Positions 36,644-64,000 of a stretch of DNA of 64,000 nucleotides are shown piece by piece (position 1 is the first letter of the stretch; each line of letters starts with the position of its first letter). The position numbers and the translations under genes were made by a program. Below the pieces are notes generated by a model, which ran no database searches, had not been told where the DNA came from, and worked only from the letters and a program-made list of their open reading frames with translations. The stretch is from Diacronema lutheri (Eukaryota > Haptophyta > Pavlovophyceae > Pavlovales > Pavlovaceae): positions 168,224-232,223 of the forward strand of contig JAGTXO010000052.1 in the NCBI GenBank assembly GCA_019448385.1. Direction: 5' to 3'.

Positions 36644-36819
36644 CTGCTTGGGCGCGAACGGAAAACGCGCGAAGGGTGGCGACGAAGATCGTTGGGTTGG
36701 GTTGGGCCACCGGCTCCCGAGGATTGCTTGTGGCGCTCGACTGACCGTTGGCCCAGCTTTTTTTTTTCTCGAACCTACTGTGGAGCCGCCTGCAGCGTGA
36801 TCTCCCGCGCACAACGACC

Positions 36820-39800: not shown

Positions 39801-39832
39801 CCCCCCCCCCCCCCCACCCCACCCCCCGATGA
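36820..39832 (+). pseudogene. SSB-like domain fused to Pif1/Helitron-type helicase, frameshifted
   Basis: From ATG 36820 the first 245 residues (FDAALVNCEIVSTRPVKPSE, FVSPPCVVDWPELTGDGNFG, LTGSMFGTKWNVCGVMLLKR) resemble viral DUF5871/ssDNA-binding-type proteins; this is a weak match. In the same frame follows a Pif1 superfamily 1B helicase: Walker A CDAPGGTGKTF (37822-37850), Walker B RLVVWDEAPMQ (about 38055-38085), LLLAGDFRQCLPVV, LKPGMVVMLPRNLSPGEGL, and motif VI-like QLHVAASRVGHTSR. The later motifs fall in other frames (shifts near 38013-38055, 38515, 38690 and 39000), so the gene is broken or misassembled. The tail is Ala/Gly/Arg-rich and ends at a poly-C run (39797 on). Helitrons and some large DNA viruses use such helicases for rolling-circle or genome replication. 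Confidence 0.65.
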
Positions 39833-42155: not shown

Positions 42156-42201
<46 letters not shown>

Positions 42202-42408
42202 ACAACTCTCCCTACCTTCTTCCTCCTTTCGCACCTCGCACGCGCACGCCGTCCGCTGTCCGCTGTCCGCGGCCCAAATTGCCTTGCGGAAGCCGAGCAG
42301 GCAGAGCCCTGCTTGGATGGCTCCAGCGCGCATCTTGTGGATGGCGACGCTGTGGGCGAGCACGGACGCTCAAATGTGACCAGTGGCGCGCACGTGCACG
42401 TGCGCTAA
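40732..42408 (+). CDS. USP-type (peptidase C19) deubiquitinase-like protein
   Basis: Three exons, 40732-41658, 41801-42127 and 42301-42408, all phase 0, give about 453 residues. The Cys box KNEGSACYTTVLMQSLF has its Cys at residue 85 and Asn at 80. QDAAEFFRLLLGR is the usual QDAxEF motif. The His box is MSGHLVAIVLRNEAWFPCDD. After splicing it runs DDYN-IYNVPESDALAWASGAS-MLVHSRL, matching the C19 ending (DD..V..V.....S..AYMLFY). About half the usual catalytic length, lacking most finger insertions. The second intron has a GTGAGTGC donor and a poly-C/(CA)n tract. The start could lie upstream. It sits between element genes and may be element cargo or a host gene. Confidence 0.7.
42161..42204 (+). 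repeat. Poly-C followed by (CA)n inside USP intron 2
   Basis: About 27 C then about 8 CA units, 33 bases after the GTGAGT donor. Same order and strand sense as the poly-C/(CA)n tract in the HEATR5 intron. Confidence 0.95.
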
Positions 42409-43192
42409 CTGGACGTCGAGCGTGTGCGCCTTGTCCGCACGTGTGCACTCACGTGCGTCTGCGGCGATCTGCCCGGCGTAGTAGTCCGCGCGCGCGGGAG
42501 CCGCGTCGGCAGTAGGAGCAGGATAACGTACTTGCGCCTAAGGAGGACGGCGAGAAGTGCGGCTTTTCGCTCGGGGTCTACCATGCCGCCGAGGTTGGCG
42601 CTGGCGCGCGTGAGGCAGTCGGAGCGCGCTGGGCCCGGGTTGAAGGCCTCACCCCGGGGGACGGGAGGATTCAAGGCGCCGAGCCGCTGCGGGTGCGGCG
42701 GGAGGCCCCGGGCGGGTGTGCTAATGCGGCTCGATGGCCGCCTGCCGGGGGGGGGGGGGGGGGGGGAGGGGGGGGGGGGGGGGGGGGGGGCGTTGGGCCG
42801 CCCGCGGAAACGGAGGTGAGCGTGTGGGAGCGGCGCGCGTCGGCGCGCGCGGCTGGCGTGCAGCACGGATAAGTCTTGTGTGGACTTCGCGGGGCGGATC
42901 CCGGTGCAGGGATTGCCGACGTAGGCCGCGAGCGCGAGCAGGGCGGGGATGAAGACGGATGATGGGGTTGGGGCCAAGGCCGCCGCACCCGCAGCTATCA
43001 CGGTGGCAGCGACCGCCACGGTCAGTGCGAGGCTCGCGTGGCCGCTGCGCGGGCAGCTCGCCCGCCAGGTCCAGGAGGGCCGGCCTGCGGCCTCAGTGCC
43101 CAGCGTTGGGCATGTCAGCGTCTGCGTCTGCGGGCCCGCCACTGCGATGGCGCATTGAGCCTGGCGCACCAAAACGCAATCGGTCCGCCGAT

Positions 43193-43223
<31 letters not shown>

Positions 43224-45130: not shown

Positions 45131-48100
45131 ATGGAGGACTCCGTGAAGGACGCTTTGCCCGGCGGGCGGGGCGGCTCGGACAGTTTCTCGCTGGCCCTCA
45201 GCACCATTCTGTCGCCGGGAGATACCCACCCCCACGTGGTCCCATCCACTTGCCTCATCGCCCTGCTGCGTTACGCGGATTTCGGCACGAGCAGGGTTAG
45301 GGTGGGCGACACGGGGTGCTCGCAGCATGCGCTCAAGGTGGCGCTGCGCAACCTGCGCAAAGCATGCGCGGATGCGGACCGGTTTGGGCAGGTGCTCGTG
45401 GTCGTGCTACCGCTCTGCCTCCGCGCGTCCCGCGGCCTCGTGCACTGGACGGCGGCGTACCTGCTCCTCGCGCCGCCCGCGCAGCGCGGCGCGCCGCCCG
45501 GCGCCGCGCTCGCCCTGCTCGCCGATTCGCGCACCTTGGGCAACGGCGAATCGGCGTACGCCACGGCGGCCGGCGTGCTCATCAAGAAGCTTGCGCAGCG
45601 CATCGGCAGAACAGCGCCGCCCATCGATGCCTTCAAGGCGCCCCCGCAGAGTGGGGCCGCGTGTTGCTTCGCCGCGGCAACAGTCGCGGCCGAGGTCGTG
45701 GCGAGCGCATCGACGCTCTACGGCCGCCGCGCGAGTGTCCTTGTCGACATCAAGAAGGCTTTGGACGCGCGCCTCGCGCGCCTCACGACGGCCGCGTACG
45801 AGGAGACCCGCGCGCGCACGCTCCGCGCCGCCATCGGCGCTCTGCTCGGCGACCGCGCCAGGCGCTTCGGCCCGTTCACCCGCGAGGCCGCGCGGCTCGC
45901 CGAGGCCGCGCGGCTCGCCGAGGCGTGCGATGCCAGTGTCGGCGGATCCGCGCCCGACGGGCTGCTGCAGGCCGTCGAGGCGGCGCTGCGCGCGCCCGAC
46001 GACCGCATCGCACGCACGGCCGCGCTCGACGCGCTCACGGGCGCTGCAGGCCGCGCGCTGTCGACGGCGGCCAGGCCGCGCGGCGCGGCGGCGCCAAGGC
46101 CGCCGTCGCGAGCGCCACCGCCGCGTGCGCCGCAGCGGCGCGCCGCCTCGGCGTGGGGGCCCCGACCATTCAGCAGCCTCGGCGGGGGCGAGGGCGACGG
46201 GGACGATGGCGACGCCACCACCGCTGACGACGGGGAGGGCGCGGAGGACGGGGACGACGACCCCGCGGGCGCGGCGGCTGCGGCGGTGGCGACGGGCACG
46301 GCGGCGACGAGCGCGGTGGCGGCGGGCGCGGCGCCAACCTCGCCGGCGGCGGCGGACGGCGGTGGCTCGGCGCCGCTCGAACGCCGCTGCGTCTACACTG
46401 CGCCTGATGAGGGCGACGCGGACGCGCGCGTGTACGACGCCAAGGACCCCGAGCAGCTAAAAGCGGGCAGGGCGCGGCTACGGGCGAACAGCGGGCGCGC
46501 GCCCGCCGTGGTCGACACGCTTTTCGCGCACGCGACGGGCACGATCGTCACGCGGCAGCGCACGGAGGGCGTGACCGGCGCGGGCATGCACCACCTCGCC
46601 GCCCCGACGCAGGGCGCGGGGTACGGTACCGTCGTGCGGGCCGAGCTGGGCGAGCCCGGCTTCGCGGGGACGACATGGCACATGACGTCGGGCGTGGAGA
46701 ACCAGCCGCGCGCGGTACAAGCGGCCGCGCGCGCGTACGCGCACGACGGCTGGGGCGGCGTGTACAATGCGCACGAGGACTTTGCCGCCTTCGAGGGCTT
46801 GCCGCGGCTCGCCGCGCCCGAATCGCTCGCGGCCATCGCCGGCGGGTCGGCGGACGCGGTGTTCTGCTGGCGGTCCGGCCGGTCCGTCATCGGCGAGGTG
46901 ACGACGGTTCACTTCAATGGCGACCGCGCCGCCGCCATCGACCACGCGCGGGCGCTGCGCGTCAGGCCCGATTGGCGCTCGCAGCCCAGGATCTACGAGG
47001 CGGCGTGCGGCGCGGAGGGCACGGTGCTGCTCGTGTGGGTCGTGCCCGACCGTCACAAGAACCCGCGGCTGGACTGGGCGCCGATTCTCGTCGTGATCCA
47101 CCTGCCCGCCGACGCCGACTGGCTCGCGCGCGCCACGCCGGCGATCGCGAAGGCGCGGCGCGAGGTCGAGGACGGACGCGCGCGCGCGGAGGCGCGCGGC
47201 GTGCCGCAGCACCTCGCCTACACGCTGAGCCCACGCTTCCGAGGCACCGCGCCGCGCGGAGCCGCGCGCGTGCCGCCGCGCCTCGGCGCGAGCGACGCGC
47301 GCGAGGCGCGCGCGCTCGCGGCGCTCGAGCCGGCGCTCATGTTCGCGCCGGCCTGGCGGCGCGCGGTGCGCGCGGCGAGCCGCGCCCCCGGCAGTGGCGC
47401 CGCGGCCGTCGAGCGCGCGCTCGCGCGCCTGCACAACGCGCTCGAGCCCGATGACGAGAGCGCGCCCGAGTCGACGCGCGTCGCGCCGCTCGCCGCCGCG
47501 CTCGAGCAGTCGGCGGGCTGGCCGGCGGGCACGGCGCGCATGGCGGCAAGCGTGACCAAGGGCCCCGGCGTCGGAGATGGCGCAGGTGGCGACGAAGTGA
47601 CCAAAGTGGAGGAAACGGCGAAGACGAGCGGCGACGGCTGCACCGGCACGCCTCCTCTGCGCCCGGCCGCGCGCGCGGCCGGCGCGGCGGACGACGGAGG
47701 GGCGGCGGTCGTGGCGGGCGTCGAGGGCGAGCGCGACGCACTCGCCAAGACGGGTGCCGGCGGCTGCGACGACGACGCTCGCGAGCCGCTGTCGGCCGGC
47801 AAGCCCGGCGCACTCGCCGCCGCGGCGACCGTCGGGGGTCTCGGCGAGCTCGTCGGCAGCCTATGCGCGTGGCTGGCGCGCGGCGCGGCTGGCGGCGCCA
47901 TCGCGGCCATCTCCCCCGGGACGGCCGCGCGCGGAGCAAACGGCACGCCGCAGCGCGCCGAGCCGCCGGCCGCCGGCGATCCCGTCGCTCCGCACGCGCG
48001 CGTCGCCGCTGCGGCGCCCTTGGCGGGCAGCGCGGCGGCGCCGTCGTCGGCCGCGCGCGACGCGCAGCGCGGCGTCGCGGGATTCGACGCGGCCGCGCAC

Positions 48101-49800
48101 GCGCACGCGCGCGACGGCAGGCGGGCGGCACGGCGGATGCGCGAGCACGAGGGGGCGGTGCACAGGGCCTTCCGCATGTCCCTCTGGCGCGACGCGACGT
48201 TTGTCGAGTTCGTTGAGAAGCTGCGCCCCGACGGCGGCGCGCAGCTGCTCGCGCGCGAGCCCACGCGGCGCGCGGCGGCGGTGCTGTGCGAGCTCGCGCG
48301 CGGCCGCGACGGCGCGAGCGGCGCGGCCGGGCTGCTGCACGAGATGAGAGCCGCCGATGCGCGCGCGCGCGAGGCCGCCAAAGCGGCGGAGGCAGCGCAG
48401 CTTGCGCACGGGACGCTGCGCATCGTGGCAACCGTGGCGCTGGGCGGTGCGGTCTTCGCCGGCATGTCAGCGCTGGTCGTTGCTTGCGCGGCGCGCACGG
48501 CGACCGGTGCGCTTTTTGGGGCCCGCCGCCCGCGGGCGGCCGCGCGCGGAGCCGACGACGCGCTCGGCACGCTGCAGCGCGCCAAGCCGCCGCCCGCCGA
48601 CAAGGGCAAGCGCAGGCGCGCCAGAGCCAACGACGACCCCGTCGACGCGGCGCGCAAGGCCGTGGGCAAGGCGGAGGGCAACTGCCGCAAGGCAGCCCGC
48701 CGGCTGCACCTCGCTGCACTGGGCGAGGAGGAGGCGCAGCAGCGCGTGCTCGACGCCGAGGCGGCGGAGCAGCTGGCGCGCTCGCGCGAGCCGGCCGGCG
48801 GCTGGGTAGGCAGCGCGCGCGCGCGCGCGCGCGCGCGCCCCGCCGCGCGCGCGCCCGTCGATTGGCGTGCGCGCAGCGCAGAACGGCGCGCCAGCTCCGT
48901 CACCTGCGCGCCGCCGCGCCCGTGCCCCTCGCGCGCAGGGGCGCCCTGCGGACCTGCGGCTGCAACAGGCGCACTTTGGCATGCGCGAAGATGCCGACGC
49001 GGATGTGCGCCGCGCGCACGAGGCGCTGCGCCGGGCGAGACAGGGTGTGGCGTGCGCCAAGGCCAGCGTGCGGCAGATGGAGGCGGCGTTGCTCAACGCG
49101 ACGCGCTGCGCCACCGCGGTGCTCGCGCCGCGTGGCGTGCCGGAGGGTGACGAGCAGGCCGCGGCGAGAGAGCAGGCGGCGCTGGACCGGGAGGCGCCGC
49201 CGGCCGCGCAACGCGCGGCGCCGACGGCGCGCTCGCCCTCGGAGCCGCCGTCCGAGTGGGGCCCGCCAGCGGTCGGCCGGCGCCCGACGCCGCGTGCACT
49301 GTCGCACGCCGCGGGTCGCGGGGACGACAACCCGTTTGCGCCGCTCGCAACCGTCAGCGGCGATTGGTCGCCCACGCCGAGCTCGCGCTCGCCGTCCTCG
49401 CCGCCGCGGCAGCCGCCGTCCGACCGCCGCAGCGCGCAGCGTCGCAGCGCGCGCGCGCGGCCGCCGAGGCCGACCGTTTCGCCCGAGGACGCGCTCGCAG
49501 CCGAGCGCCAGGCGCGCGCGCTGTCGGAGCAGGCGGAGCAGAGGCGCGCCAAAAAGGCCGCCGCCAAGGCCGCGCGCCGCGCCGCGCGCGCCGCCGACAA
49601 GCGGACGGCGCGCGTCGTCCACGCGTGCGTAAGCGCCGCCTTGCGGCGCGTCTGCACGAGCGTCGCCACGGGCACGCCGCTCGCCGTGCTCCGCGAGCGC
49701 GCCGAGGGGCCGCGCGCGCCGAAGCCCGCGCCCCGCGCCGCCACGCCGCGCAGCGGACGGCGGCCGCGCGCTCCGCCACGCGCGCCGTGCGGCCGCCGCG
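45131..49800 (+). CDS. Long protein with N-terminal Ulp1-like cysteine protease, coiled coil and membrane helix
   Basis: Exon 1 is 45131-48805. An intron at 48806-48938 (GTAGGC...CGCGCAG, 133 bp, with a GC-dinucleotide tract) leads in phase 0 to GRPADLRLQQAHFGMREDAD, and the frame runs on to about 49,790. Catalytic-type residues of a C48/Ulp1 fold: H105 (GLVHWTAAYLLL), D132 (LLADSRTLG), and Q173 with C178/C179 (PPQSGAACCFAAATVAAEVV). A middle domain at about 430-650 has ADAVFCWRSGRSVIGEVTTV, reminiscent of a PD-(D/E)xK core with Thr for Lys. A hydrophobic helix follows at about 1,100 (LRIVATVALGGAVFAGMSAL), then Lys/Arg-rich coils. After about 49,750 the coding signal moves one frame. Function probably polyprotein or SUMO/ubiquitin processing. 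Confidence 0.5.
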
Positions 49801-52800
49801 GCGGCGGAGCGCGAGGCGGCGGTGGCGGCCGACGCCGACGAGCGGTTCGAGCGGCAGCCCTCCGCCGCCCGGTTCGACGGCGGCGATGGCGGCGGAGGCG
49901 GCCACGTCGAGGCGAGCGCGCGACCGCGCGCCGGCGAGGCCGGCGAGGCTGGCGCGCACGGCGCGCCTGGCGCAGCGGGGACCCCGGCGGCGTCGCTCGC
50001 GTCGCGCAGCCCGTGTGATGCGCGCCGCACGGCACGCCTCCCGCACGCACGCGCCGCAGCCACCTGCGCACGCAACGGCGGCTGGGGTGGCAACGTCGGC
50101 GGCGACGTGTGCGGCGGTTGTTTCGGCGGCGGCGGCGTCCGTCGCGACGCCTGCGGCGGCGGCGACGCCACCTGCGGCTGCGGCGATGGCGGCGTCGGTG
50201 CTGGCGCTGGCGAGGCCCCTGCACACGGTGCGCCGGCGCGCGCGACGGCGTCGCGCTTGCTGCGCTTGCTCGGCGCGCCACGCGCCGTGCTCGGTGCGAT
50301 GGCGCACGCCGCGGCCGTGTTGGCGCGCGGCGTGGCCGCAGCCGTCGCTGGCGTGCGCGCCGCCGCGCGCGCCGTGCGGCGCGCGCGCCGCCGAGCGCCT
50401 CGCGCGCGCCGCACGGCTGCGCGGCGGGCTCGCGGCCCGCCGATGCGCGACGTCGACGGCGCCCTGCGGCCCTCGCCGTCCTGGTTGCGCACACGCCTCG
50501 TCTGCGGCCGGCGCCTCGCGCCTCTGCGCCGCGCGGGCGCGCGCCCGCCGCCCGCACACGCCGCGCCGAGTTCCCGCGCGCGCGCTGCGCAACCCGACAG
50601 CGACGCGCCGGCGTGCGCGCCGCGGCGCTCGGCGCCTGTCGGTGCGCCGCCGCGCGCGCGTGGCCTGCGCGCGGCGCGCGCACGGCGCTTCCTCGACGTC
50701 GCCGGCCGCGCGGCGCGGAGCGCGCGCCTCGGCGCGCGCATCACGCGCCAGCGCACGCCGGGTTCGCCATCGGAGCCCTGCACGGCCGAGAGCGGCGACG
50801 GCGCGGGCGCCGGCGGCGTCGGCGCGGCGGCGCCTGGCGCGGCGACGATGCGCGCCACCGGCGCGCGCGCAGCGCGCGCTGCGGCGGCGGCGGTCGGTGG
50901 CGCCTCGCGTCTCGCGCGCCGCGCGATGGCAAGCGCCGCCGCCGCTGCCACCTCCATCGCCGGCGCTGCCGCCTCCACCGTCGCCGCCGCCGCCGTTGCC
51001 ATCGGCGCGGCCGTCACGTCACCGGCGTTCGCCGCGGCGCGCGGCATGGCGGCCGCATGCGTCGCTGCCTGCGCCCGCCCCACCGCCGCGCAGGCGGCCG
51101 CGTCGCGCGCGCTCGGCGCGCTCTTCGTGCTCGTCGACGCGGCCGACGCGGCGGGCGACAGCGACGCCGCGCTCGGCGCGCTCGCGGCCGCGGTCGACGC
51201 GACGGAGCTGCGCCCGCCGCCGGCCTTTTGGCGCGCGGGCCGCGCCGCGGCGTACGCACCGCGTCCGCCGCCCCTCGACTCGGCGCGGCCGCGCTACAAC
51301 CGGCGCGCGCGCGCACCTAGCCCTCCCGTCGCGGCCGCGCGGCGCAATCTCGCGCGCGCGGTGCGCGAGCTCACGCGCGCCGCGCGCGCTGAGCGCGAGC
51401 GCGCGCCGGCGCCGCGCGGCGCGCGCGGCGGCGTGCTCCACGCGCTGCGCGCGTCGCTCCCCGTGCACGCGCGTGCCGCGCTCGGCACGGACGCGGAGCT
51501 GCGCGCGGACATCGCCGCGTTCGCGCGCGCGCGCCGCGAGCTGCACAGCCTCACCGACGCCGAGGTGGCGGCGCTCGCGCGCCCGGACGGGCCGCCGCTG
51601 CCCGTGCGGCTCGCGTGCACGGCGGTCGCGCGCGCGCGCGGCGTGACCGTGCTGCTCGACATCGTGCCGCGCGGCGGCGGCGCGCCCGAGCGGCTCGTGT
51701 GCCGCGCCCGTCGCCGCGGCGCCGCCACGCGCACGCCACGGCCGACAGCCGCCGTTATCGCGCGCGCGCCTTGCATAGCGGCGCGCGTTGGCCACACTGA
51801 GCCGGCGCGCGCGTGCGCGGGCGGATCGATCGGGGTCGCGCGCCTCCGTTCAGCGCGCCGCCGCTCTTGGCGTGGGGCGCGGCTCGACGTGCACACCCGC
51901 GAGCGGCTGGCCACACCGGTGCCAGGCCACGTCGTGGCCTGCGCCGCCGCCTCGGCCATCGGCGCGTGCGTCGCTCGCGCGCGGCTTGGGCTTGCACGGC
52001 TGGCGCGCGCGTGGCCCTGCGCCTCCGCTCCACTGGCCGCTGCTGCTGTCGCCTTCGCGCCTGCCGCCGACGGTGTTTTCTGCGCCCCGCTGGGCGCTCC
52101 TGCATCCGCCTTCGCGCCTGCCGCCGACGGTGTTTTCCCCGCCGCACTAGCCGCTGCTGCATCCGCCTTCGCGCCTGCCGCCGATTTTCCCGCCCCACTA
52201 GTTGCTCCTGCATTCGCCTCCGCGCCTGCCACCGACGGCGTTTTCCCCGCCCCACTAGCCGCTGCCGCTGCCGCGTCCGCGCCTGCCGCCGCGGGCGCGT
52301 CTTCCGCCCCACCAGCCATCGCCGCCGCGCCCGCCGCCAACGCGCGCACCGCCAACGTGCCCGTTGCCAACGAGGCTACCGCCACCGAACCAGCCGCCCT
52401 TGAGCTTCCCCTCCAACCCGCCAACTCGGCGCTGCTTGCGTGGGCGGGCGACGCGGCTGCGCGCCGGCTGGCCGCCGCCGCCGCGAGCGCCGGCCTCCCG
52501 CAGGCAGAGGTGGAGCGCATCGCCAGCGGCGACATGCTCGCCTCAACCGTCGACGCGTGCTGCGAGGTCGTGCTGCGCGTGCACGGGCAGGCCGGCGGCG
52601 GGCATGTCTGCCACGTGCCGCTCGCCGCGCAACCCGCGGTGTTTCAGGACGACGCCGAGCGCGCCGCGCTGCTGCACCGCCTGCGCAGCGAGGCGACAAC
52701 GCAGGCTGTCATCGGCGTGTGGAGCCCGTCGGACGAGCGCGGCGGCGCGGGCGGTGACGACGGCGCGCAGCTCGCCTCCGGCCATTTCACCGCGTTGCGC

Positions 52801-53376
52801 CTTGTGCGCGTCGCGCGCGCGGGCGAGCATCGCTACGACGCGGTGCTCGTCGACACGCTCGCGTCGCCCTGCAGGCAGGCGCTCATGCTCGCCAAGGCGA
52901 TAACTGCCACGCTGCACGCGGCGGGTCTCGACATTTCGCGCGTGCGCCGCGCGCTGCTGCTCAACGAGGCGGCGCAGCGTGGCGCGACGTGCGGCCTCGC
53001 GATAGTGGGCGCGCTCAACGACGCGCTCGCCGCGGCGGGCTGCTCGTCCGCGCCGCGCACGTTCAGCGTGGCGGACATGTACGCTGTCGGCGAGCGCCTC
53101 CGCGTCGCGCTGACCGGCGCGGCCAGCGATCGTGCGCCGGGCGGCGTCTGCGCGGTCACGAGCGCGGTGCGTGGCGGGGGCAGCCCCGATCGCGCCGAAA
53201 CGCCGCCGCAGACGCGCGGCGCCAAGGCCGCCGCTGGCGTCACCGCCGCCGCCACCGCCGCCGCCACGCCGCCGCCGCCCGCGCTGGGCGCCGCCGCCGC
53301 CGCCACCGCCGCCGCCGCCGCTGCTGCCGCCGCCGTGGCCGCGCCGCCACCGCCGCCACCGCCGCCGCCGGCCGGC

Positions 53377-53453
<77 letters not shown>

Positions 53454-55400
53454 GCGCACGTTCTTGAAGCTCGCGCCCAGGGCGCGCGCGGCCGCCTCGG
53501 CGCGTGAGGCGTTGCGCGCCGCGTGTGCGCGCGCGGACGCGGCGGCGTCGTCACACGCGTCGGCGCCGCACGCGCCCGCCGGTGCGCGCCGCCGGCGGCG
53601 CGCGGGCGCAGGCGAGCTGGCGCTCGCGGCTGCGCGCGCGCTCGCCTCGACGGAGCACGGCGATTTGACGGACGACGCGCTCGAGGCCGCCGTCGAGCAG
53701 GAGCTGGGCGACGAGCGCGGCCAACTGCTGCTGTGCACGCGGGGCGCAGCGGCGCAAAGGCCCGCGCTTTGCCGGCTCCTGAAGCACGCGTGCGCGTCGG
53801 CGCGCGCGGCGAAGCGCGCGCAATTCACGGTATTCGTCGTGCGCGCGGCCACGCGCGGCGAGCGGGGGGGCGCCGCCGCGAGGCGCGTGGACTCGGTGGT
53901 CGAGCTGTCGTGCGCGCTGCACGAGAAGGCGGGCGCGCTCGGCGGCCTCCAGAGCGTCTGTGTGCGTGGCTTTGCCCTCGAGCGCCGCCGGACACTCGAC
54001 GCTGGCGCCGAGGCCGGCGCGTCCGCCATCGGCCAGGACGAGCAGGTCGAGGCAGAGGCGGGCGAGGCGTGCGTCGCCGGCGTGACGATGGCCAAGCAGC
54101 TGCGTCAGTTTGCCGAGCAAGCTGCCCGCGACGACGTGCTCTTCCACGTCGCCGTGTCCGAGGCCGACGCCCACGCCCGGCTGGCGCGCGTTGCGGGTGA
54201 CGATGTCGGCGCGTACAGCGTCGTGCTCGCAGTCGCCGGGCTCGTCTGGCTGGCCAAGGCCGACGAGGTTGCGCCGGCGGCCGCCCAGTCCGCCGCCGTG
54301 CCGCCCGCCGCCCCGCCTGCTGCCGCCACGTCCGCCGACGCCGAGCGCGACGCCTCGCCTTACGACCGCCTGCGCGCGCTGACGCTCGCCGTGCGAGTCG
54401 CGCTCGCGCGCGGCGTGCTGCGCCACCTCCTCGCCGACGCGTCGCCGGGCGCGTCCGCGACCGCTGGCGGTAGTTGCGCGACGCCCGTCGAGGCGGCCGC
54501 GTCCGACGCCGCGCCGCCCGCCACGGGCGTCGTGACGAGTGGCGTTGCGGCGGGCGCTGTGGCGGCCGCACCGGCTGCTGCGGGCGGTGCGATGGCGGGT
54601 GCATCGCCCATCGCGCGGCCGGCGAAGCGCGCGCGGCGCACGCTCACCGCCGCTCCAGCCGCCTCGGCCGTTGCGGCCGCTGGAGGCGCACGCGCGGGCG
54701 CACGCGGCGCGGCCGGCGCGCCTCGCGCGCGCGCCGCGCGCGCGCCGGCCGAGTACGTCTGGCTTGCCATCGCGCGCCGGATGCTGGCGGCGCGACACGC
54801 GGCGGCCGCGGGCGGCGACTTTGTCGCGTCGTGCGTCGCCGCGATGCAGGCCGAGTACGGCGACGGCTGTGCCGTCGTCGTCGGCGACGCGCCTGGTGAC
54901 GCCTTGGTCGAGGCTGCGGCGGCGGCGCTGCTCGAGGGCAAGCACGCGGCGGTGAGCCTCGGCTGCGTCGACCGGCCGGCGGTGCTCGTCGTGCAGCGCG
55001 CCGTGGACGCGCCCACGTCGCGCGTGCACGGGTGGTGCGCGCACGCGGCGGGCGCCGCCGAGTTTGACGAGGGCGCCGCGCGCGACGTGTTCAACGCGAT
55101 CGTCGAGCGCGCGTGGGCGCTGCGTCCGGACCCGGCCGACGGCAGCCCGCCGCCCACGCGCACGTGGGAGGTCGAGCAAATCGCTGACGACGCGCCCGAC
55201 CAGGCGGGCGTGGCCGCGCTGCGCGTGCTCTACGCGCTCGTCGCGGCGCACGGCCGCTACCGCTCGGCCGCCGCGCTCTTTGGCGCGCTCGCGCAGCTGC
55301 ACGCGCCCGACGCCGCCGGCGCGCGCGCGGAGGTCGTCGCGGCGGCGTGCGCGGTGCCGCCCGGCGCGCGGCCGGGCGCCGCGCCGGCGGCCCGCGCGGG
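49801..55400 (+). CDS. Giant Ala-rich protein with a second Ulp1-like protease domain
   Basis: Open in one frame for about 1,860 codons; it may be continuous with the preceding gene through a frameshift. The first 850 residues are Ala/Arg/Pro-rich. At 52.4-53.1 kb is an Ulp1/C48-like protease: His in ASGHFTALRLV (about 52780), Asp in AVLVDTLASP (about 52850), and Gln/Cys in EAAQRGATCGLAIVGALNDA (about 52970-53030). A poly-Ala (GCC)n stretch follows at 53.38-53.45 kb. Two further globular parts come next: LTDDALEAAVEQELGDERGQ to LVWLAKADEV, and AEYVWLAIARRMLAARHAAA to AAALFGALAQLHA. The last contains DAPDQAGVAALRVLYALVAA, which looks like a protease Cys region without its Cys. The coding signal leaves this frame near 55,400. 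Confidence 0.45.
53380..53452 (+). repeat. (GCC)n trinucleotide tract coding poly-Ala
   Basis: Around 24 near-perfect GCC units, coding a run of about 20 alanines in the giant protein. A length-unstable microsatellite. Confidence 0.85.
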
Positions 55401-58400
55401 ACGACGCGAGGGAGCGCGCATGGGAGGGCGCTCAGATCGCCGCGCTCGCCGTCGGCGCGGACGCTGCGCGCAGGCGTGTCGCGCCCGTGCGCGCGCTCGT
55501 CGACGCGCTCGGCACGCCGCCGACCTCGGCGATCACGGGCGGGCCGGCGGTGCGGCTCGCGGGCGCGGGCGACGGCGGCCACGGTGCACGGTGGGTGGGC
55601 GGGCAGGCGGCGACGCCCGCCGAGCAGCTGCCGAGGGAGCTGCTGCGCGCCTACCACGAGGCGGTGCTGTGCGTCACGCCCGGCAGCCTCCAGCTCGGCC
55701 CGGCGGCGCTCGACGCGGTCACGCGGCCGCGCGGAAAACGACACGCTGGAAGGCCTCCTCGCGCGCGTCAGCTGGCAGTGCGGCGCGAGGGCGAGCACGT
55801 GCGCCATGCTCGCCACGTTTTCCGAGCAGGCGGGCACCGGCTCGCGCGTCGCGCTCAAGGCCCTCCGCACGAGCTCCGACCTGGCCGGGCTGACGGCGGC
55901 TGCGGTCGGGCAGCAGGCGCCGCAGACGCCGCCGCCGCCGCTGCTCGTGATGCTCGGCCGCTGCCCCAGCCCGCTCGTCGGCGGTGGCCTCTTCCCGCCC
56001 GACCGCGCGACGGGCGAGCCGGCGGTGCACGCGGCGACGTCCGAGCTCGCCGTCGAGCTGCTGCGCGACGCGCGCGCGCTGGCCGGCACGGACGGGCGGC
56101 TCGTCGTGCTGTGCCTCGAGGCGTCCAACCCGCTCTGGTTCTGCCCCAAGGTGCGCGAGCTCGAGCTGCCGCGGACGCGGTCGGACGGCGTGCGCGCGTC
56201 CGGCTGCACCTGCCCTGCGACGTGCAGCGATGCGCGCGGCGCGGCGGGTGGCGCTGCCCGCGGCGCATCGACGCGGCCGGCGGCGCGCGCGATCAACAAG
56301 GCGGTGCTCGACCACTTCGTCGCGCTTTTCGGCCGCGAGGGCTTCGCGACCTTTGAGTTTGCGGGCGGCGGCGAGGCGAGCTGGCTGTGCGACAGCGCGG
56401 CCGGCACGACGACCGTCGCGGCGTGCGCGTCGCTGCCGCCGCGCATGGGCGATGGGCAGCTGGCCATCCGGCGGCACACGCTCGGCACGGGCGCCGACGC
56501 GCCGGCGCACGCCGTCGTCTCGCTCCGCGTCGCGCACGTGAGCCACGCCATCCGCCGCGCGGCGGACGACGGCGGCGCGCGCGCCGAGCGGATGGCGCGC
56601 GCCGCGCGCGCGTTTTGCGATGTGGCGGCCGCGCTGCGCGTCGACGCGATCCTGGCGGAGGTGCCCGAGGACCGCCCGACGGGCACGCCCTTCCTTGGCG
56701 GGCTGCTCAAATTTTGGGACAAAGACCACGGGAGCTCGACGGCGCCAGCCACGCTCGCGCTCGGAGACGTGCGCGAGGTGGCCAAGCGGACGGCCGACGC
56801 AGCGGCCGGCCGAGCGGACGAGGTCCCTGCGGCTGGCCGTCCGCAGGTCGCGGCGCGCGCGTGCGCTGGCGCGATTGGCGGCGGTGCGGGCGCGGCGGGC
56901 GCCTCGGACGCTGCGCCGCGTGCACTGGCGGGCGCGTCGGGTGCGCGCACGGACGGCGGCCCTGCCGACGCACCGCGCCAGCTGGAGAGCCGCTACGGCG
57001 AGGCGAGCAAGCTCGACCTACCCCAAGATTCCACTACGGGCCGCGTCCTCGACGCTCGCGAGGCCCAGGACCGCGCGCGCGTGCCTGCTGCGCCCGACGG
57101 CACAGCGCTGCGCCGCGTGCTCGACGCCGTCGGCGCGGGCGCGCCCGCGCAGCGCAGCCCGCGCTGGCACGACGAGCGATGGGAGGAGGTCACGGGCAGC
57201 AAGGTTGGCGACGTCGTGAACGACAACGCCGGCGTCGCGCACGAGACGCTCACCGACGAGTACGTGCACCGGCGGCGGCGCGAGGTGCGGACCAAGGCGA
57301 CGACCGCGGGCATCCTCGGCGAGGCCGTCGCGCTGCGCAAGCTGGCGGCCGCGTACGGCATCACCGTCGTGTGCAACCTGCCGATGGTGCGTGCGGACCC
57401 GCACGACAAGAGCGCGCCGTTCGCCTTCTCGCCGGACGGGCTCGCCATCCTCCCCGAAAACAACGAGCAGGTCCTCGTCGAGGTGAAGACGCTCACCAAG
57501 GCGGGCGCCACGGCGCACGAGGACGGGCCGCCGCAGCCGCACCGCGATCAGCTGCAGCTCGGCATGCACGTCCTCGGCGTGAGCAAAGCGCTCTACGTGC
57601 AGTACCTCAGGCACGAGGACCGGATCGTCGTGCACGTCGTGACGCGCGGCGCCGGCTGGCTTGCATTCGCGCAGCCGAGGGTGCAGGCCTTCTGGGCGCG
57701 CGTCGTCGAGCGGCGCGCGCGGCTCGAGCGCGCGCGCGCCGACCACCCGGCTGCGAGCCGGCGGCACCGGCGGCAGCAGACGCCGGCCGGGCCGCCGCTC
57801 GTGCTCGCGCTGGACGGGCGCATCCCCGCCGCGCGCGCCGCCGCGCTGCACGCCGTCGCGCACGGCACCGCGAGCGCGGCGGCGGTGACGGCGGCGGCGG
57901 CGACGGGCGACGCGACGGCGTTGCAAGACGCGATCGCGGCGCTGCGCGCGCCCGTCGGCAATGCGGCGATCGACAGCGCAGCGCGTGCGGAGCGCGCGGC
58001 CGTCGAGCGGGCGATCGCGTACCTCGGGCAGCCGGCAGGCGACGCCGCCGCCCGCGGCACGGACGAGGCGGCCGAGGAGGAGAGGACGGTCGACGCCGAC
58101 ATCTGCGCGTTGCTGCACCAGCTCGGCGCGAGCGTGGCGCACGTGCACGTCGAGGACGCGGATTGCGTCACGCGTGAGCACTGGGGCGGGGCGGTGCTCG
58201 CTGCAGCGGGCGACCCGTCGAGCGCCCCCGCCATTTCGAGCGTCATCGTCGCGCACATCGTGCGCCTCGCCGGCTTTGGCGTCGAGCTCCCGCAGTCGAT
58301 TCGCGTCGCCCCCAGCACGGCCGACTGGCACGAGGGCTGGCTCGACGTGCAGTGCGTGCTGCTGCGCACGCGCCGGCGCGGGCGGCGCGACGACGACTTT

Positions 58401-60029
58401 GTGGCCGTCGTCAGGCGCGGTGGGCGCTGGTTTGCGTGCGAGCCCGGCCGCGCGCGGCGGCTGCAGTGGCGGTCGGTCCTGCGCCGCGCGCGCGGCGGCG
58501 TCGACGGGACCGGCGAGGAGGCGTTCGCGGTCGTCTACGTGCGGCGCGGCGACGCGGCCGGCGACGCGGCTGGCGACGCGCAGGCCGAACGGGCGCGCGG
58601 CGGGCGCGCGCGCAGGCGCACGCGCGGCGGCACGCGCAAGCGCAAGCGCGGCGCCTCCGCCGGGCTCGAGGCGGCCGCGCCCGCCGGCGCGCCGGCGGGC
58701 GCTGCTCACCGCCCGCCCGCCAGGCGTGCCACGGTCGCCGCGCGCACCACGCGCTCTGTGACCGACGCGCGGCACTCGGCGCCTGCCGCCACGGTTGCAC
58801 CTGTCTTCGACTGGCGCGCCGGCCGCCCGCCCCCTGCCGCCGCCGCCGCCGCCAAGCGCGGCCAGGCGCTCGAGCCGGGGCAGTTCGCGCGGCCGCGTGG
58901 GCGCGCGCCATGGGGCAAGGTCTGGGACAGAGTCTCGGGTGCGTGGGCGGACAAGCCGACTGGTGCTGCCGTCGCCGCCGCGCCGCCGCCGCTGCCGCCC
59001 GCCGCCGCGCCGCCGCCCGCCGCCGCGCCGCCGCCCACCGCCGCGCCGCCGCCCGCCGCCGCGCCGCCGCCCGCCGTCGCGCCGCCGCCCGCCGCCGCGC
59101 CGCCGCCGCCGCCGCCACCGGCGGCGCTCGGCCGCCGGCAGCACGTCGGCGCGGGCGGCAGCGCGGCGGGCCGGCGGCTCGCGGCCATCGCACGGCGGCA
59201 GCGCGGCGTGCGCGCGCCGCCGCCCGCCGCGCGCTTCCTCGCCACGCTGCCGCCACCGCCACGCGACGGCCTCGCGCGCACGAGCAAGCAGGCGCGCGCG
59301 AGGCGCAACGCGGACGGACGGCCGGCGCACGCGCGCGCGGCCAACGCGCGCGCCTTCTACCGCGGCGTGGAGCTCGGCGTGCACGCGACGCGCGCCATCG
59401 TCGACGCGCGCCACGCCGACCTGCCGCAGGCCGTCTTCGTGGCGGAGGCGCGGGCGATCGTCGCGCGCTCCGCCGGCGGCGGCGCGCTGCTCGCGCCGGA
59501 CGACGTGCGCGACCTGTGCGACGCGCAGACGGACGCCGATCGCGCTGCGATCTGGGCGTCGGTGGGCGCGCACGAGGCGACGCGCATCTTCGCGCTCGTC
59601 ACGCGCAACGCGAGCTTGGCGGGCGCGGCGCTGCTCGTGCTGCACACGCCGGCGGGCGCGCCGGCGCGCGCGCTCGGGCTCGTGGCGACGCGCTCGCGCG
59701 CGCCGTCGACGGGCGCGCCGCGCGACGCGCACGGGGCGCTGGTGCAGCGGTTGGACGTGCTGATGGACGCGATCGCCGCGGCGCGAGGCGCGTCGCCGCT
59801 CGAGCTCGAGCTCGCGCTCGCGCCCGAGCCGCAGAGCGCGTGCAACGCGCGTGCGGCCGCGCTGCTCTGCCTGCAGGCCGTCGCGGACGCGAGCGGCCGT
59901 CCCGCCGCTGAGGACGCGCTGGCCGCGCTCGACGACGCGCGCGGCATCGACCGGCACTGCCACGCCGTCCGGCAGCAGATCGAGGCGAAGCTCGCGTGGC
60001 GGCGCGCCCGACGGCGCCGTCGGCGTTGA
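55401..60029 (+). CDS. Protein with YqaJ-type (lambda exonuclease-like) recombination nuclease
   Basis: Coding signal first uses one frame (AWEGAQIAALAVGADAARRR to RAYHEAVLCVTPGSLQLG). It shifts near 55,733 into a frame open to 60029 (ENDTLEGLLARVSW onward). An unknown globular domain spans 55.74-56.75 kb (WFCPKVRELELP, FVALFGREGFATFEFAGGGE). The YqaJ domain at 57.15-57.72 kb has the family start SPRWHDERWEEVTGSKVGDV, then GILGEAVALRKLA, FSPDGLAI (catalytic D), VLVEVKTLT (E and K) and RDQLQLGMHVLGVSKALYVQ. That is a full PD-(D/E)xK set. YqaJ enzymes resect DNA ends for viral or phage recombination with an annealing protein. Downstream are a domain with DFVAVVRRGGRWFACEPGRA, an RPRGRAPWGKVWDRVSGAW motif, Pro-rich linkers and another helical domain. 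Confidence 0.6.
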   Translation, partial: TTRGSAHGRALRSPRSPSARTLRAGVSRPCARSSTRSARRRPRRSRAGRRCGSRARATAATVHGGWAGRRRRPPSSCRGSCCAPTTRRCCASRPAASSSARRRSTRSRGRAENDTLEGLLARVSWQCGARASTCAMLATFSEQAGTGSRVALKALRTSSDLAGLTAAAVGQQAPQTPPPPLLVMLGRCPSPLVGGGLFPPDRATGEPAVHAATSELAVELLRDARALAGTDGRLVVLCLEASNPLWFCPKVRELELPRTRSDGVRASGCTCPATCSDARGAAGGAARGASTRPAARAINKAVLDHFVALFGREGFATFEFAGGGEASWLCDSAAGTTTVAACASLPPRMGDGQLAIRRHTLGTGADAPAHAVVSLRVAHVSHAIRRAADDGGARAERMARAARAFCDVAAALRVDAILAEVPEDRPTGTPFLGGLLKFWDKDHGSSTAPATLALGDVREVAKRTADAAAGRADEVPAAGRPQVAARACAGAIGGGAGAAGASDAAPRALAGASGARTDGGPADAPRQLESRYGEASKLDLPQDSTTGRVLDAREAQDRARVPAAPDGTALRRVLDAVGAGAPAQRSPRWHDERWEEVTGSKVGDVVNDNAGVAHETLTDEYVHRRRREVRTKATTAGILGEAVALRKLAAAYGITVVCNLPMVRADPHDKSAPFAFSPDGLAILPENNEQVLVEVKTLTKAGATAHEDGPPQPHRDQLQLGMHVLGVSKALYVQYLRHEDRIVVHVVTRGAGWLAFAQPRVQAFWARVVERRARLERARADHPAASRRHRRQQTPAGPPLVLALDGRIPAARAAALHAVAHGTASAAAVTAAAATGDATALQDAIAALRAPVGNAAIDSAARAERAAVERAIAYLGQPAGDAAARGTDEAAEEERTVDADICALLHQLGASVAHVHVEDADCVTREHWGGAVLAAAGDPSSAPAISSVIVAHIVRLAGFGVELPQSIRVAPSTADWHEGWLDVQCVLLRTRRRGRRDDDFVAVVRRGGRWFACEPGRARRLQWRSVLRRARGGVDGTGEEAFAVVYVRRGDAAGDAAGDAQAERARGGRARRRTRGGTRKRKRGASAGLEAAAPAGAPAGAAHRPPARRATVAARTTRSVTDARHSAPAATVAPVFDWRAGRPPPAAAAAAKRGQALEPGQFARPRGRAPWGKVWDRVSGAWADKPTGAAVAAAPPPLPPAAAPPPAAAPPPTAAPPPAAAPPPAVAPPPAAAPPPPPPPAALGRRQHVGAGGSAAGRRLAAIARRQRGVRAPPPAARFLATLPPPPRDGLARTSKQARARRNADGRPAHARAANARAFYRGVELGVHATRAIVDARHADLPQAVFVAEARAIVARSAGGGALLAPDDVRDLCDAQTDADRAAIWASVGAHEATRIFALVTRNASLAGAALLVLHTPAGAPARALGLVATRSRAPSTGAPRDAHGALVQRLDVLMDAIAAARGASPLELELALAPEPQSACNARAAALLCLQAVADASGRPAAEDALAALDDARGIDRHCHAVRQQIEAKLAWRRARRRRRR

Positions 60030-63000
60030 CGGCGCCGACGGCGCGCCCGCGCTCGCGCCTGCCGCCGCACCGCCGGCGTGCGCGCCGGCGCACGCTGCCG
60101 GCGAGGCGGCGGTCGACCAGGCGATCGTCACGCGGGTGCGCGACGCGCTGCGCGCGTGGGCGACGACTGGCACCGCGCCCAGCGCGGCGGTGCTCGACGA
60201 CGCCTGCGCCGCGTACACGGCCCGCGCACGCGCGCGCAAGGACGCGCGCACGGCGCTGGGCCCGACGCGCGCGGCCGAGCTGCTCGCCGCGGCCGCGCGC
60301 GGCGGAGCCGACGGGGCGGATGCCGCGCGCGCGCTGCTCGGCGGCACGCCGCGCCTGCTCGTCGTGCTCCTCTGCGTGCCCGTCGCCGCGCCGTCCGGCG
60401 AGCCGCCGCGCCCGGTCGGGCTGCTCGTCGCCGACCGGCCGACGGACGACTCGCGCCCGGCCCGCGCTCGTGCGCTACGACTTTGCGCCGCTCGACGCGG
60501 ACGTGGCCGTCGCGGTCGGCACGCATGCCGTCGCGCTGGCCAGTGCGATCTGGCCGCTGCTCGCGGCCGAGGGGGAGCCGCGGCCATCGCCCGTCGTGCG
60601 CTCGCAGCCGCGCGGCGGCGACGATGGCGCGCGTGCGCTCGCAACGTTCGCGTGCCTCGACGCGCTGATGACCGCCAGCGTCGGCGCGCACGGCCTCGCG
60701 GGCGGCGCGGGCATGCTGCCCGCGCTGGTCGCGCGAGGCGCCGCGGCCGCCCAGCGCGAGCGGCAGCTGCGCGCGGCCGCCGAGAGGCTGGGCGGCACGG
60801 TCGCTGGGTGGCCGGACACGGGCGCGAGCGCGGCGGGCGCGAGCGTCGACGAGGAGGCGCGCACGTACGAGGTCGAGGCGGTCGTCGACGAGCGCCGCAA
60901 GGCGGGCAAGAAGGTGACGTTCCAGTTCCGGATCAGGTGGCGGGGCTACGACGAGAGCGCCGACACGTGGGAGCCTGAGGCCAACGTGAGCAGCGACCTC
61001 GTCGCCCAGTTCCGCAAGACGCGCGACGAGCAGAAGCGGCGCGCGGGCGTATCGGGCAGCGGCAGCGGCGGCGCGGGCGCGGCGTCGGCATTGGCGTCGG
61101 CGCCGCTTCGCGCGCACGGCGAGTCGGGCGCCGCGGGCAAGCGCGCCGCGGCGGGTGCCGCCGCGAGCGCGCGCGACGCCGCGGGCGCGCGCGCGCCGAG
61201 CGTTCCCCGCGCGCGCGGCGTCGAGCGCGCGCGCGTGGACGAGCCCGCTGCGCCGAGCGCGCGCGCCGCCGGCGGCGCGACGGCGCGCACGCGCGTCAGC
61301 GTGCTCCCGGGCTTCGTGGTCAAGCGCTCGACGCTCAACGCGGGGCCGCAGGCGGTGACGGCGCAGCCCGGTGCGCGGAAGGAGCTGCGGCGCATCGCGG
61401 CGGCCGTGCACAGGCTCACGACACAGGCGTACCGCGTCATCAACAAGGTGGTGCGCGACGAGGCTGCGGTGGCGAGCGCGCAGGCCGTCGGCGCGGCGTC
61501 GGGCGGCCCGTCGACCAGCGTGCACACGTCGACCACGATGGACAAGGGAACCGTCCGTGCGATCTTCTCGGCCATCGGCTGGCACAAGGACGAGAGCACG
61601 TACGGTGCAGCGCCCCGAGGCAAGCCCGCCGAGCAAGCCGCCGCGCAGACCAAGGCGGCGACGGCGCGCGCCGTCGGCGAGATGGCCGAGGGCGTCCAGC
61701 CCGTCTGCGCGGTGGGCCTCACGGAGATCCTCGAGGCGGAGGCGACGCAGGTGTCCACCGCGTGCCTGATGCATCCATCGCGCGTCGTGAACGGGCTGCT
61801 CCGCGACGTCGTCCGCGCGGCAGTCGAGCGCGACGAGGCGCTCGTCGCGCTGCCCGAGATGCAGCGAAACGCGCGCGTGCGCGAGCTGTGCGAGCGGCTG
61901 CTGCGCGGCGACGTGGAGGGCGCGCGCGTCGGCTGCCCCGCCGCGCTCGACCGCCACCTGCCCGACATGGTCCTCCACAAGATCGACTACAAGTGCACGC
62001 CCACGAAAAGGTGGAACTACGACCGGCACACGACGCGCTACTTCCTCGTGCAGATCCGCACCCTGCAGCACGTGGCCGAGGGGCAGGCGCTGCTCTGCCG
62101 GCTCGCGCACATCCACACGCAGCTGACCGGACGGCCGCCGCGGTACAATGTGGCGCCGCTGCGCACGCACAATGTGCGCGCGAGGCGTGGCTGCCGCTGC
62201 CGCCGCCGAGCGCCCAAGCGCGCGCGCCGCCGCCGTGCGCGCCGCCCCGCGGCCAGGTTGGTCACGCGCCCGCGCGCTCGCGCGCCGCGCGCTGCGCGCA
62301 GGTTGCCCGCGCAACGTGCGCCTCGCCGCGAGCGCCATCTGGGTGACGCTTTCGGATGACGAGCGCAAGGAGCTGCGCGCGCGGCTCAAGGCGCTGGACC
62401 TGCGCGACCACGATGGCGAGCCGATCAAGTGGACAGGCACAAACGGCAACACCCCGCCGATGTCGGACGTGCGCGTCAGGTACGCGGTCTTTTGCGACGC
62501 GCTTCGACATCTCCAACCGCGTCTTCGACTACGCCGGGCGCGAGCGGCCGCCGGCCGATCTGCCGTGGCACGCGCGGCGCTCGTGGGTTGGCCTCGCGCC
62601 GCTGCCGCGCGTGCCGCTCCCGGGCCGGCAGCCCGTCAAGTCGGTGGTGACAGATGGCGTCGCCGTGCACGCCGTCGGGACCGTCCTCGTGCCGAAGGCG
62701 CAGGCGCCGGCCGGCGGCTCGGGCGTCCTGCACCGCTGGCGCCGGCCGGACGGGCGCATCGCCGTCGCGCTCGGCTCCGAGCTGCGGCGGGCGATCGACG
62801 TCGAGGCGGCGGTCGTCGTCGCGGCCGACCCGAACATGGGCAACATCACCACCTACTCTGCGCACGTCGGGCGGGCGGCCGTCTGGCGGCAGTTCACGCA
62901 GCGCGCGCGCGCGCGCGCCGCGGGCTTTGCGCGCGAGACGGCCAAGACCAACGCGGCGCGGCGGCGCGTGCGCAAGGACGGGCGCGGCGAGGAGTTCAGC

Positions 63001-63695
63001 GTGGAGGCGGACGAGGCGCGGCTTGGCGAGGCGCACAGCGCCAAGGTGCTCGGCGAGGGCGAGTTCCACGCCTTCCACCGCGAGAGCGCGCGGTGGTGCG
63101 CGAGCGCGCCGCCGAGCACGTGTACGACGCGCCGGCGCGCCGGAAGGAGCGCTGGCGGCGCGACAGCGGCGGGCGGTCCAACGCGGCGCGCGTCGCCGAG
63201 GCGCTCATCGCGGCGCACTGTGTCGACGGCGTGACGCGCGACCGGCTGCTCGTGTGCGTGGGACAAGTGGCTGCGCGACCACAAGGGCGCGCAGCCCAAG
63301 GGCGCGCCGCCCGCCTTCCAGGTGGGGCTGCTGCGCGAGCTGCGGCGGCGCGGCCGTCGCGGCCGTCTTCGTGCCCGAGCCGTACACGTCGATGCACTGC
63401 TCGATGCCGCGGCTCGCCAAGGGCGGCAGGCTGCAGCGCTGCGGCGCGGAGCTCGCGCAGAACCCGCGCCTGCCCGTGGCAAAGGGCGGCACGCGCACGG
63501 TGCACGCGCTCGTCATCTGCCCGGCGTGCAACGGCGGCAAGAAGCCCGTGCACCGCGACTACAACGCCGCGCGCAACATCTTATACGACGTGCACGACAT
63601 GGCGGCGCACGCGGCCGGGCGCGACACCACGTCGACGCATGAGCGCTTTGCCCTCGTGCTCGCCTGGTGGGCGCGCGCGCGGTGTGGGAGCGTGA
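60030..63695 (+). CDS. Chromodomain-Fanzor (eukaryotic TnpB/OMEGA RNA-guided nuclease), frameshifted
   Basis: A helical N-terminal part (60.1-60.8 kb, one shift near 60,460) leads to a chromodomain at about 60861-61040 (TYEVEAVVDERRKAGKKVTF, FRIRWRGYDESADTWEPEAN). The Fanzor/TnpB-like region follows: RKELRRIAAAVHRLTTQAYR, KIDYKCTPTKRWNYDRHTTR, and a 115-bp intron 62187-62301 (GTGGCT...GCGCAG, phase 1). The RuvC-like acidic residues are D in VVVAADPNMGNITTYSAH (about 62827), E in VFVPEPYTSMHC (about 63376) and D in HRDYNAARNILYDV (about 63556). A Cys pair (MHC, LQRC, VICPAC) between the last two gives the zinc-finger insert of TnpB. Frames shift near 62,497, 63,110, 63,250 and 63,330, so this copy is probably inactive unless the shifts are sequence errors. 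TnpB/Fanzor proteins cut DNA guided by an omega RNA overlapping their 3' end. Confidence 0.75.
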
Positions 63696-64000
63696 GGAGC
63701 GCATGGTGCACGGCCGAGGGCGACGACTGCGACGACGAGTGCGACGGCGACGACGAGGGCGACGACGAGGGCGACCGACGACGACGACGACGATGGCAGC
63801 GGCGACGGCGGCGGCGGCGAGGGCGACGGTGACGGCCGACGGCGACGGAGGCGGCGGCGGCGACGACGACGATGACGGCGGGGGAGGCGGCGGCGGCGAC
63901 GGCGGTGGCCGACGACGGCGGCGGGCGCGGCGGCGGTGGCGGCGGCGGCTCTCGCGCCCGCACCCCCGCCCGCGGAGCTGCCAGCGCCAGTGCGCGGCGG
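63696..64000. other. Simple-sequence tail downstream of the Fanzor
   Basis: GAC/GGC trinucleotide-rich DNA (gacgacgagggcgacgacga and similar) after the last Fanzor motif. One frame remains open with an Asp/Glu then Arg-rich tail to about 63,832. The omega RNA of Fanzor systems would be expected near here, but I cannot recognise it. The window ends at 64,000. Confidence 0.4.

Follow-up and report, generated by a model that had tools for sequence, protein, structure and literature searches.

The window, the whole stretch of 64,000 bases analysed here, forms the end of contig C95 (232,223 bp) of Diacronema lutheri and carries one copy of a giant mobile element of about 31 kb. Towards the 3′ end of this element, a chromodomain is encoded in one open frame with the N-terminal half of a Fanzor-type nuclease. 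Frame conservation, codon composition and alignment to other Fanzors indicate that the chromodomain and the Fanzor are very probably parts of one translated protein. An earlier note on this DNA had reported a clear chromodomain at about 60861-61040, in a frame that runs stop-free into the Fanzor N-terminal region, and both observations were borne out. The features that carry the finding, in window coordinates, are as follows.

48810..62173, + strand: first long exon of a giant product, 4,453 codons in the copy on contig C72; broken by insertions and deletions (indels) in the window copy
60866..61018, + strand: chromodomain (PF00385, E 9.5e-13; CDYL- and HP1-type chromodomains of the PDB, E 1.2e-9 and weaker)
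61019..61288, + strand: low-complexity linker rich in Ala, Gly and Arg, about 90 residues; read through in frame in all 12 other copies, and coding-like in codon-position GC
61289..62173, + strand: Fanzor N-terminal half, the end of the long exon; in frame with the chromodomain and, together with the following exon, aligned collinearly to a different Fanzor of the genome
62174..62301, + strand: predicted GT-AG intron, 128 nt, phase 0 (GTGCGC...GCGCAG); its removal restores the frame, and it lacks coding periodicity
62302..64000, + strand: Fanzor C-terminal exon with RuvC, zinc ribbon and then an acidic low-complexity tail; stop codon past the contig end; PF07282 28.5 bits in C72
62827..62829, + strand: RuvC-I Asp, in DPN and not DPG (alignment A1, column D175)
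63377..63379, + strand: RuvC-II Glu in the alternative Fanzor position, E-x6-C (A1, column E357; position as defined in passages of PMC10711439)
63557..63559, + strand: RuvC-III Asp, in HRDYNAARNI (A1, column D417)

Reading frame of the chromodomain and the Fanzor

PF00385 matched residues 319-369 of window frame 59912-62356 with 48.3 bits (cut-off 25.1). The chromodomain frame was open as far as 62359 and included the Fanzor N-half. We compared this region with 12 other copies, namely the C72 copy and 11 from the best full-length matches to window 60800-63700; because of this choice the 12 are not a random sample. In the genome searched (103 contigs, 43,492,796 bases), 40 places, the window's own included, matched this segment over its full length at 99-100% identity. 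All 12 copies had the chromodomain, linker and Fanzor N-half as a single open frame, followed by the 128-nt GT-AG stretch and an open exon. The Fanzor C-terminal exon had 574 codons in C72 and in 10 of the 11 further copies, and 570 in the remaining one, L012.

In the window copy, the nuclease core is spread over two more frames. These three frames arise because contig C95 stops where the window does. At positions on which 10 or more of the 12 other copies agreed, differences confined to the window between 59.3 and 64.0 kb comprised 13 insertions, 3 deletions and 7 substitutions of single bases, and 14 of the 16 indel bases lay beyond 62.3 kb, within the final 1.7 kb of C95. Errors at the contig end account for the window's frame breaks. 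An assembly artefact as the source of the fusion was ruled out by these window-only indels together with the agreement of all 12 other copies on this arrangement.

GC contents at codon positions 1/2/3 were 0.65/0.51/0.97 in the chromodomain, 0.88/0.83/0.93 in the linker and 0.72/0.51/0.94 in the Fanzor N-half. The intron had 0.81/0.91/0.88, with loss of the coding-like pattern. By this measure the chromodomain, the linker and both Fanzor parts are marked as coding and the intron as non-coding.

The single frame of C72 extended for 4,509 codons; 4,453 of them precede the splice site, and the exon after it adds 574. When this 25-kb region was simulated 100 times with a third-order Markov model, no frame was longer than 1,795 codons, which ruled out a chance frame, and other frames in these 25 kb of C72 reached 1,786. 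The chromodomain lies about 4,000 residues into the giant product and is therefore internal, not N-terminal as first described; the gene likewise extends far beyond the 60030-63700 originally assigned to it. Long frames were common among other copies. In the genome search with PF00385 we scored 150 of 260 candidates and took 146 as element chromodomains by their element-like score, without individual inspection. The frames that hold them were at least 4,000 codons long in 102 of the 146, at least 4,400 in 83, at least 5,300 in 7, and shorter than 2,000 in 20. The remaining 4 scored higher than the element; L001-L003 among them had no match to the window.

The nuclease and the chromodomain

On the downstream window frame, PF07282 (Cas12f1-like_TNB) scored 22 bits, under the cut-off of 26.3; on the intact C72 exon it reached 28.5 bits (E 1.7e-6), above that cut-off, and 31.3 bits for most element copies among the matches listed. 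NF040570 (guided_TnpB) gave 14 bits on the exon against a cut-off of 100. Fanzor homology visible to Pfam was confined to the exon 3′ of the intron.

Profile comparisons linked the exon to other Fanzors. A two-row exon profile matched a profile of three Fanzors of the same genome (L064, L072 and L075) with a probability of 97% (E 1.2e-10, 145 columns), and the three-Fanzor profile in turn matched solved Fanzor1 proteins of Spizellomyces (E 4.2e-6) and Parasitella (E 8.1e-4). Used alone, the two-row exon profile matched Cas12f1 9i8y at E 0.0031, beside an unrelated protease at 0.19. An alignment of the spliced protein with the L072 Fanzor covered residues 154-719 and spanned the splice junction, which lies at residue 295 (composition-adjusted E 9.5e-11); the alignment with L064 covered residues 406-720 (E 1.1e-7). 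The N-half alone had no BLAST match. It gave a collinear hhalign match (score 32.0), and a version longer by 40 residues scored 31.5, where 20 shuffles of this longer version did not exceed 21.5. The alignment across the junction and the N-half profile match therefore support both the intron and the N-half assignment.

The three relatives, at C71:709850-713000 (L064), C86:1017700-1020800 (L072) and C36:901400-904400 (L075), are divergent, DPG-bearing Fanzors, and the element chromodomain had no match in their loci. The genome search with PF07282, in which 150 of 306 candidates were scored, gave 43.9-44.5 bits at fourteen places, of which one, L060 on C11, is of L064 type.

Columns D175, E357 and D417 were invariant over the five rows of alignment A1, three of which are L064-type Fanzors of the genome. 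The alternative Glu of Fanzors stands six residues before the first zinc cysteine, according to passages of PMC10711439. The first motif was DPN in C72, DQN in the decayed copy L067, and DPG in L064, L072 and L075. In the zinc ribbon the second CxxC was kept, and the first was replaced by CSMP with another Cys 14 residues on, so that C72 retains four cysteines. Of the residues described earlier, the RuvC D, E and D were thus present, the Glu in its alternative position, and the zinc-finger cysteines proved to be altered. The relaxed Bao-Jurka pattern was found in 15 of 15 sequences scanned, and the strict DPG/alternative Glu/CxxC form in none of the 15, not even in L064 with its DPG. Viral contigs gave no match to six exact peptide patterns taken from the Fanzor exon.

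The chromodomain matched CDYL, HP1, CDY and relatives in the PDB (46 distinct sequences at E up to 0.001), and Y, W and Y were retained in the alignment to CDYL 2dnt. These we take to be the aromatic positions of the methyl-lysine cage of HP1. Because the cage residues are kept, it is plausible that the chromodomain reads methylated lysine 9 or 27 of histone H3. By the same residues, and by analogy with retroelement integrases, we infer that the nuclease may select heterochromatin or euchromatin.

Among the element copies, subfamily A (C72, L024) and subfamily B (C6, L027) are identical in the chromodomain and linker and differ by 2-3% in the Fanzor, with about 3% in its exon 2. Between A and B, synonymous divergence (dS) was 0.040 and nonsynonymous divergence (dN) 0.028 in exon 2; the N-half had a dS of 0.026 and a dN of 0.017. 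C72 and C46 (L005/L116) differed at 18 sites in the first 150 bp of exon 2. This shift in divergence at the Fanzor suggests that the Fanzor end may have been exchanged as a module between subfamilies.

The 31-kb element and its insertion sites

The remaining features of the window are listed here.

28421..28494: tRNA-Gln (TTG), outside the element
33380..33386, + strand: TATATAC directly 5′ of the element, a candidate target motif or target-adjacent motif (TAM); TATATA[C/G] stands at 25 of 27 five-prime ends, the window's included
33387..64000, + strand: giant mobile element, most often about 31.0 kb long when complete; 5′ terminus GGCGCGGTCC..., 3′ terminus past the contig end, termini shared with other copies
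37753..38396, + strand: PIF1-like helicase domain over two frames, probably with introns (PF05970, E 3.7e-14 and 1e-24)
40960..41226, + strand: ubiquitin-specific protease (USP) domain, a deubiquitinase of UCH/USP type (PF00443, E 4.3e-8)
45113..49150, + strand: 1,345-codon open frame that matched no family and has a coding-like GC periodicity; it probably belongs to the giant product as its upstream part
57165..57575, + strand: weak YqaJ/lambda-exonuclease-like nuclease domain, under curated cut-offs (PF09588, E 0.0012-0.016; TIGR03033, E 9.1e-6)

Exact searches of the genome found 201 three-prime and 187 five-prime ends of the element, and the reversed control pattern found none. In other copies the 3′ terminus is ...GGGGCGCGATCGTGCCCCTGATCGGATTTGGCTTGACCATCTATAC, followed by differing flanks. 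We paired 100 listed of the 201 three-prime ends against 93 of 100 listed (of 187) five-prime ends: 64 of the 100 listed 3′ ends paired with a 5′ end and 36 had no partner. The paired lengths were about 31.0 kb in 28 cases, about 21.5 kb in 13, 29-29.5 kb in 8, 26-27 kb in 8 and other values in 7. With a mean of 27.9 kb, 187-201 copies are estimated to occupy 5.2-5.6 Mb, about 12-13% of the genome. The element has multiplied recently, probably with a rolling-circle (Helitron-like) habit.

The helicase gene switches frame several times, which suggests introns, and PHROGs gave a weak Dda-like helicase match only. No reverse transcriptase or integrase family was recognised in the subset of frames scanned. 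A search for HUH and tyrosine-recombinase motifs returned a few H-x-H strings, none of them convincing. The PIF1-type helicase is a Helitron feature that the element has. Helitron_like_N (PF14214) had one match in the genome, at G000:C63:35738-36019 (L059; E 8.3e-23), outside the element, in a locus with no DNA match to the window. The element ends (5′ GGCGCGG, 3′ CTATAC) are unlike those of Helitron1 (5′-TC and CTRR-3′ in passages of PMC3627910). Helitron2 is marked by hairpins at both ends and by asymmetric inverted repeats; in the present element hairpins lie near both ends, and 25 and 17 of 200 shuffles fold equally well. Tandem protease-like repeats, noticed by eye in the giant product, were rejected: when seven segments were compared in 21 pairs with hhalign, the scores did not clearly exceed those of shuffles. 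Also by eye, we noted within the element an inverted repeat of about 880 bp at ~35370-36250, with GTGTAGGGTGTAGG arms and the look of a nested miniature inverted-repeat transposable element, and beside the helicase gene a short open frame on the minus strand at ~36300-36650 with an apparent single membrane helix.

Many contigs are bounded by element termini, for example C1, C5, C6 and C12, with the 3′ end at base 1-2, and C32 and C49, with the 5′ pattern at bases 14 and 6. These are probably assembly breaks at the 31-kb repeat. Targeting of telomeres or chromosome ends was also considered; contigs break at element ends in both orientations, and the idea was dropped because assemblers break at the edges of long repeats.

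Insertion sites were read at 20 copies with both flanks. The left flank was TATATA followed by C (10) or G (9) in 19 of the 20, which are not all independent because two left flanks (L078 and L098) look alike; one copy had a TATTAA variant. The right end was constantly CTATA-C in the 20 copies. Among seven further left ends, six had TATATA[C/G] and one had CTATAGAG. The 27 five-prime ends so examined exclude C69 (5′ end outside the sequence retrieved), C9m (3′ end outside the sequence retrieved), and C49 and C72 (contig starts). No clear flank duplication was seen in 19 of the 20 copies. L082 and L098 had 9 bases common to their flanks, and mismatched flank pairs reached at least 8 in 5.6%, with a maximum of 11.

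Proposed mechanism and comparison with known systems

In the mechanism that we propose, the giant polyprotein of a Helitron-like element would end in a chromodomain, a linker and a Fanzor1-type RNA-guided nuclease. The Fanzor may take an omega RNA from the 3′ end of the element; its gene stops about 400 bp short of that end. The right-hand flank would serve as the guide and TATATA[C/G] as the TAM, so that the Fanzor would cut element-free sites, and repair from an element-bearing copy would restore or spread the element. By way of its chromodomain, the nuclease would stay bound to nucleosomes that carry methylated histone lysine and could thereby work on silenced element loci. Cutting, omega RNA, tether and splicing are steps that we infer, and the chances of the mechanism as a whole appear about even.

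Several observations weigh against it. On the side of the nuclease, activity is uncertain because DPN replaces DPG and the first CxxC is lost. Purifying selection on the Fanzor is not demonstrated, since the selection tests were non-significant: dN/dS between subfamilies was 0.66-0.72 (exon 2, C6 N-half) and 1.14 for the C46 N-half, and 30 of 44 changes between C72 and C46 in exon 2 were nonsynonymous where 74% were expected (binomial p 0.24). Values for L067 and L070 were discarded for poor alignments. AlphaFold2, the structure prediction proposed in the earlier note, was run in two jobs and gave models of low confidence (mean predicted local distance difference test scores, pLDDT, of 35.9 and 37.1). 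On the side of the fusion, older copies are decayed: L069 holds frame over chromodomain and Fanzor and has two in-frame stops, exon 2 of C46 is open for 310 codons only, and a deletion in L066 has removed the chromodomain, so that the nuclease there directly follows the preceding region. Of six related Fanzor loci among 16 fetched, L069 alone had the chromodomain in the roughly 3 kb read. On the side of the omega RNA, 375 nt of the right end, minus the last ~33 nt, folded as RNA no better than shuffles (z -0.29). On the side of mobility, no Rep or other transposase was recognised in the frames scanned, where a divergent Rep is possible. One copy, L086/L087 (C9:2907763-2907822 and C9:2938822-2938891), lies between two copies of a 13-base direct repeat. 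The TATATA may itself belong to the element as its terminus, and a TATA duplication is possible because TATA stands at both sides.

The leading alternative, tentative and behind the proposed mechanism, is that the chromodomain serves the polyprotein or an integration complex, as in retroelement integrases, with the Fanzor as a separate module, released by protease or independent, and with no chromatin-guided nuclease. In its favour are the giant product with many other regions, the USP-like protease domain encoded by the element and the low-complexity linker. However, chromodomain and Fanzor are adjacent at the C terminus, about 90 residues apart and in frame in the 12 other copies, and no integrase was recognised in the frames scanned.

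We consider it unlikely that the Fanzor is an inactive or regulatory relic that binds RNA and DNA without cutting, in which case the chromodomain would make it a chromatin-bound silencer or a marker of the element. The substitution of DPN for DPG, the loss of half of the CxxC pairs and the non-significant purifying selection agree with a relic, whereas C72 keeps three catalytic acids and four cysteines, other element copies scanned keep the Fanzor pattern, and the exon has kept its length (574 codons in all copies compared except the one with 570). Still less probable is a variant with no conventional transposase at all, in which the chromodomain-Fanzor would cut TATATA[C/G] in methylated chromatin and the YqaJ-like exonuclease and PIF1 helicase would copy the element into the break.

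Chromodomain and Fanzor might also share a genomic frame and be made from different transcripts, through an alternative promoter or splicing. At least one intron is predicted nearby, and the frame switches of the helicase suggest others; but the coding periodicity of the linker is continuous, with no frame change and a third-position GC of 0.93, and the chromodomain exon's own end aligns to the Fanzor N-half, which makes separate transcripts very improbable. An origin of the fusion in faulty assembly or in a chance frame is hardly credible: the window copy does lie at a contig end with frame breaks, and long frames are common in DNA of such GC (1,786 codons in the longest of the other frames of C72), but the 12 other copies are alike, so that one assembly error would have to be common to all of them, 102 of 146 frames reach at least 4,000 codons and the simulations stay at or below 1,795.

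The biological role of Fanzors is called unknown in passages of PMC10432273. A Fanzor coupled to a histone reader, in a repeat family that has some 200 termini of either type and copies mostly 99-100% identical, offers a testable answer to why eukaryotic transposons kept Fanzors, namely that the elements may couple RNA-guided cutting to chromatin state; if true, nature would here provide a design for nucleases able to act in closed chromatin. The earlier note had known of no described chromodomain-Fanzor fusion, and in agreement with it no report was found in the open-licence literature searched, as far as its accessible portions go, so that absence in print is not proven.

Several known systems share part of the arrangement. 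The TnpB gene lies near the right end in IS200/IS605 elements, as the nuclease gene does here. Those elements also resemble ours in the fixed left motif and variable right flank at insertion (passages of PMC10711439), and they share with Helitron2 a left motif and the general absence of flank duplication. For TnpB and Fanzor, the TAM stands at the left and the guide is taken from the right end (passages of PMC10711439), which is the same geometry as that of the element's insertion. In contrast to IS200/IS605, the present element is eukaryotic and giant, with no TnpA recognised. Chromoviruses, which are long terminal repeat (LTR) retrotransposons, likewise carry a chromodomain in a mobile-element polyprotein, and the chromodomain is named as a known accessory domain (passages of PMC6338049). 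Here, however, the frames scanned hold no reverse transcriptase or integrase, and the partner is a Fanzor-type nuclease.

The RuvC and zinc-ribbon core is related to that of the solved Fanzor1 proteins (Spizellomyces 8gkh, Parasitella 9cf0) by way of the other Fanzors of the genome; Guillardia Fanzor1 9cer was matched at E 0.16 only. Compared with these, the present protein has DPN for DPG, an altered zinc ribbon and a fused chromodomain. A further parallel is the Fanzor1 already known from the Helitron2 elements CRe-1/2/3 of Chlamydomonas (Bao & Jurka 2013; passages of PMC3627910). Both are cases of Fanzor1 in an algal element, with a multi-exon gene and a fixed motif 5′ of the insertion. Full-length ends of CRe-1/2/3 also lack target-site duplication, and some have repeats of 7-19 bp, comparable with the 13 bp in 1 of 20 copies here (passages of PMC3627910). 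According to the same source, CRe-1/2/3 are non-autonomous elements whose Fanzor1 stands alone and whose target is of TTTT type, whereas in the present element the Fanzor comes last in a giant product, behind a chromodomain, and the left motif is TATATA[C/G].

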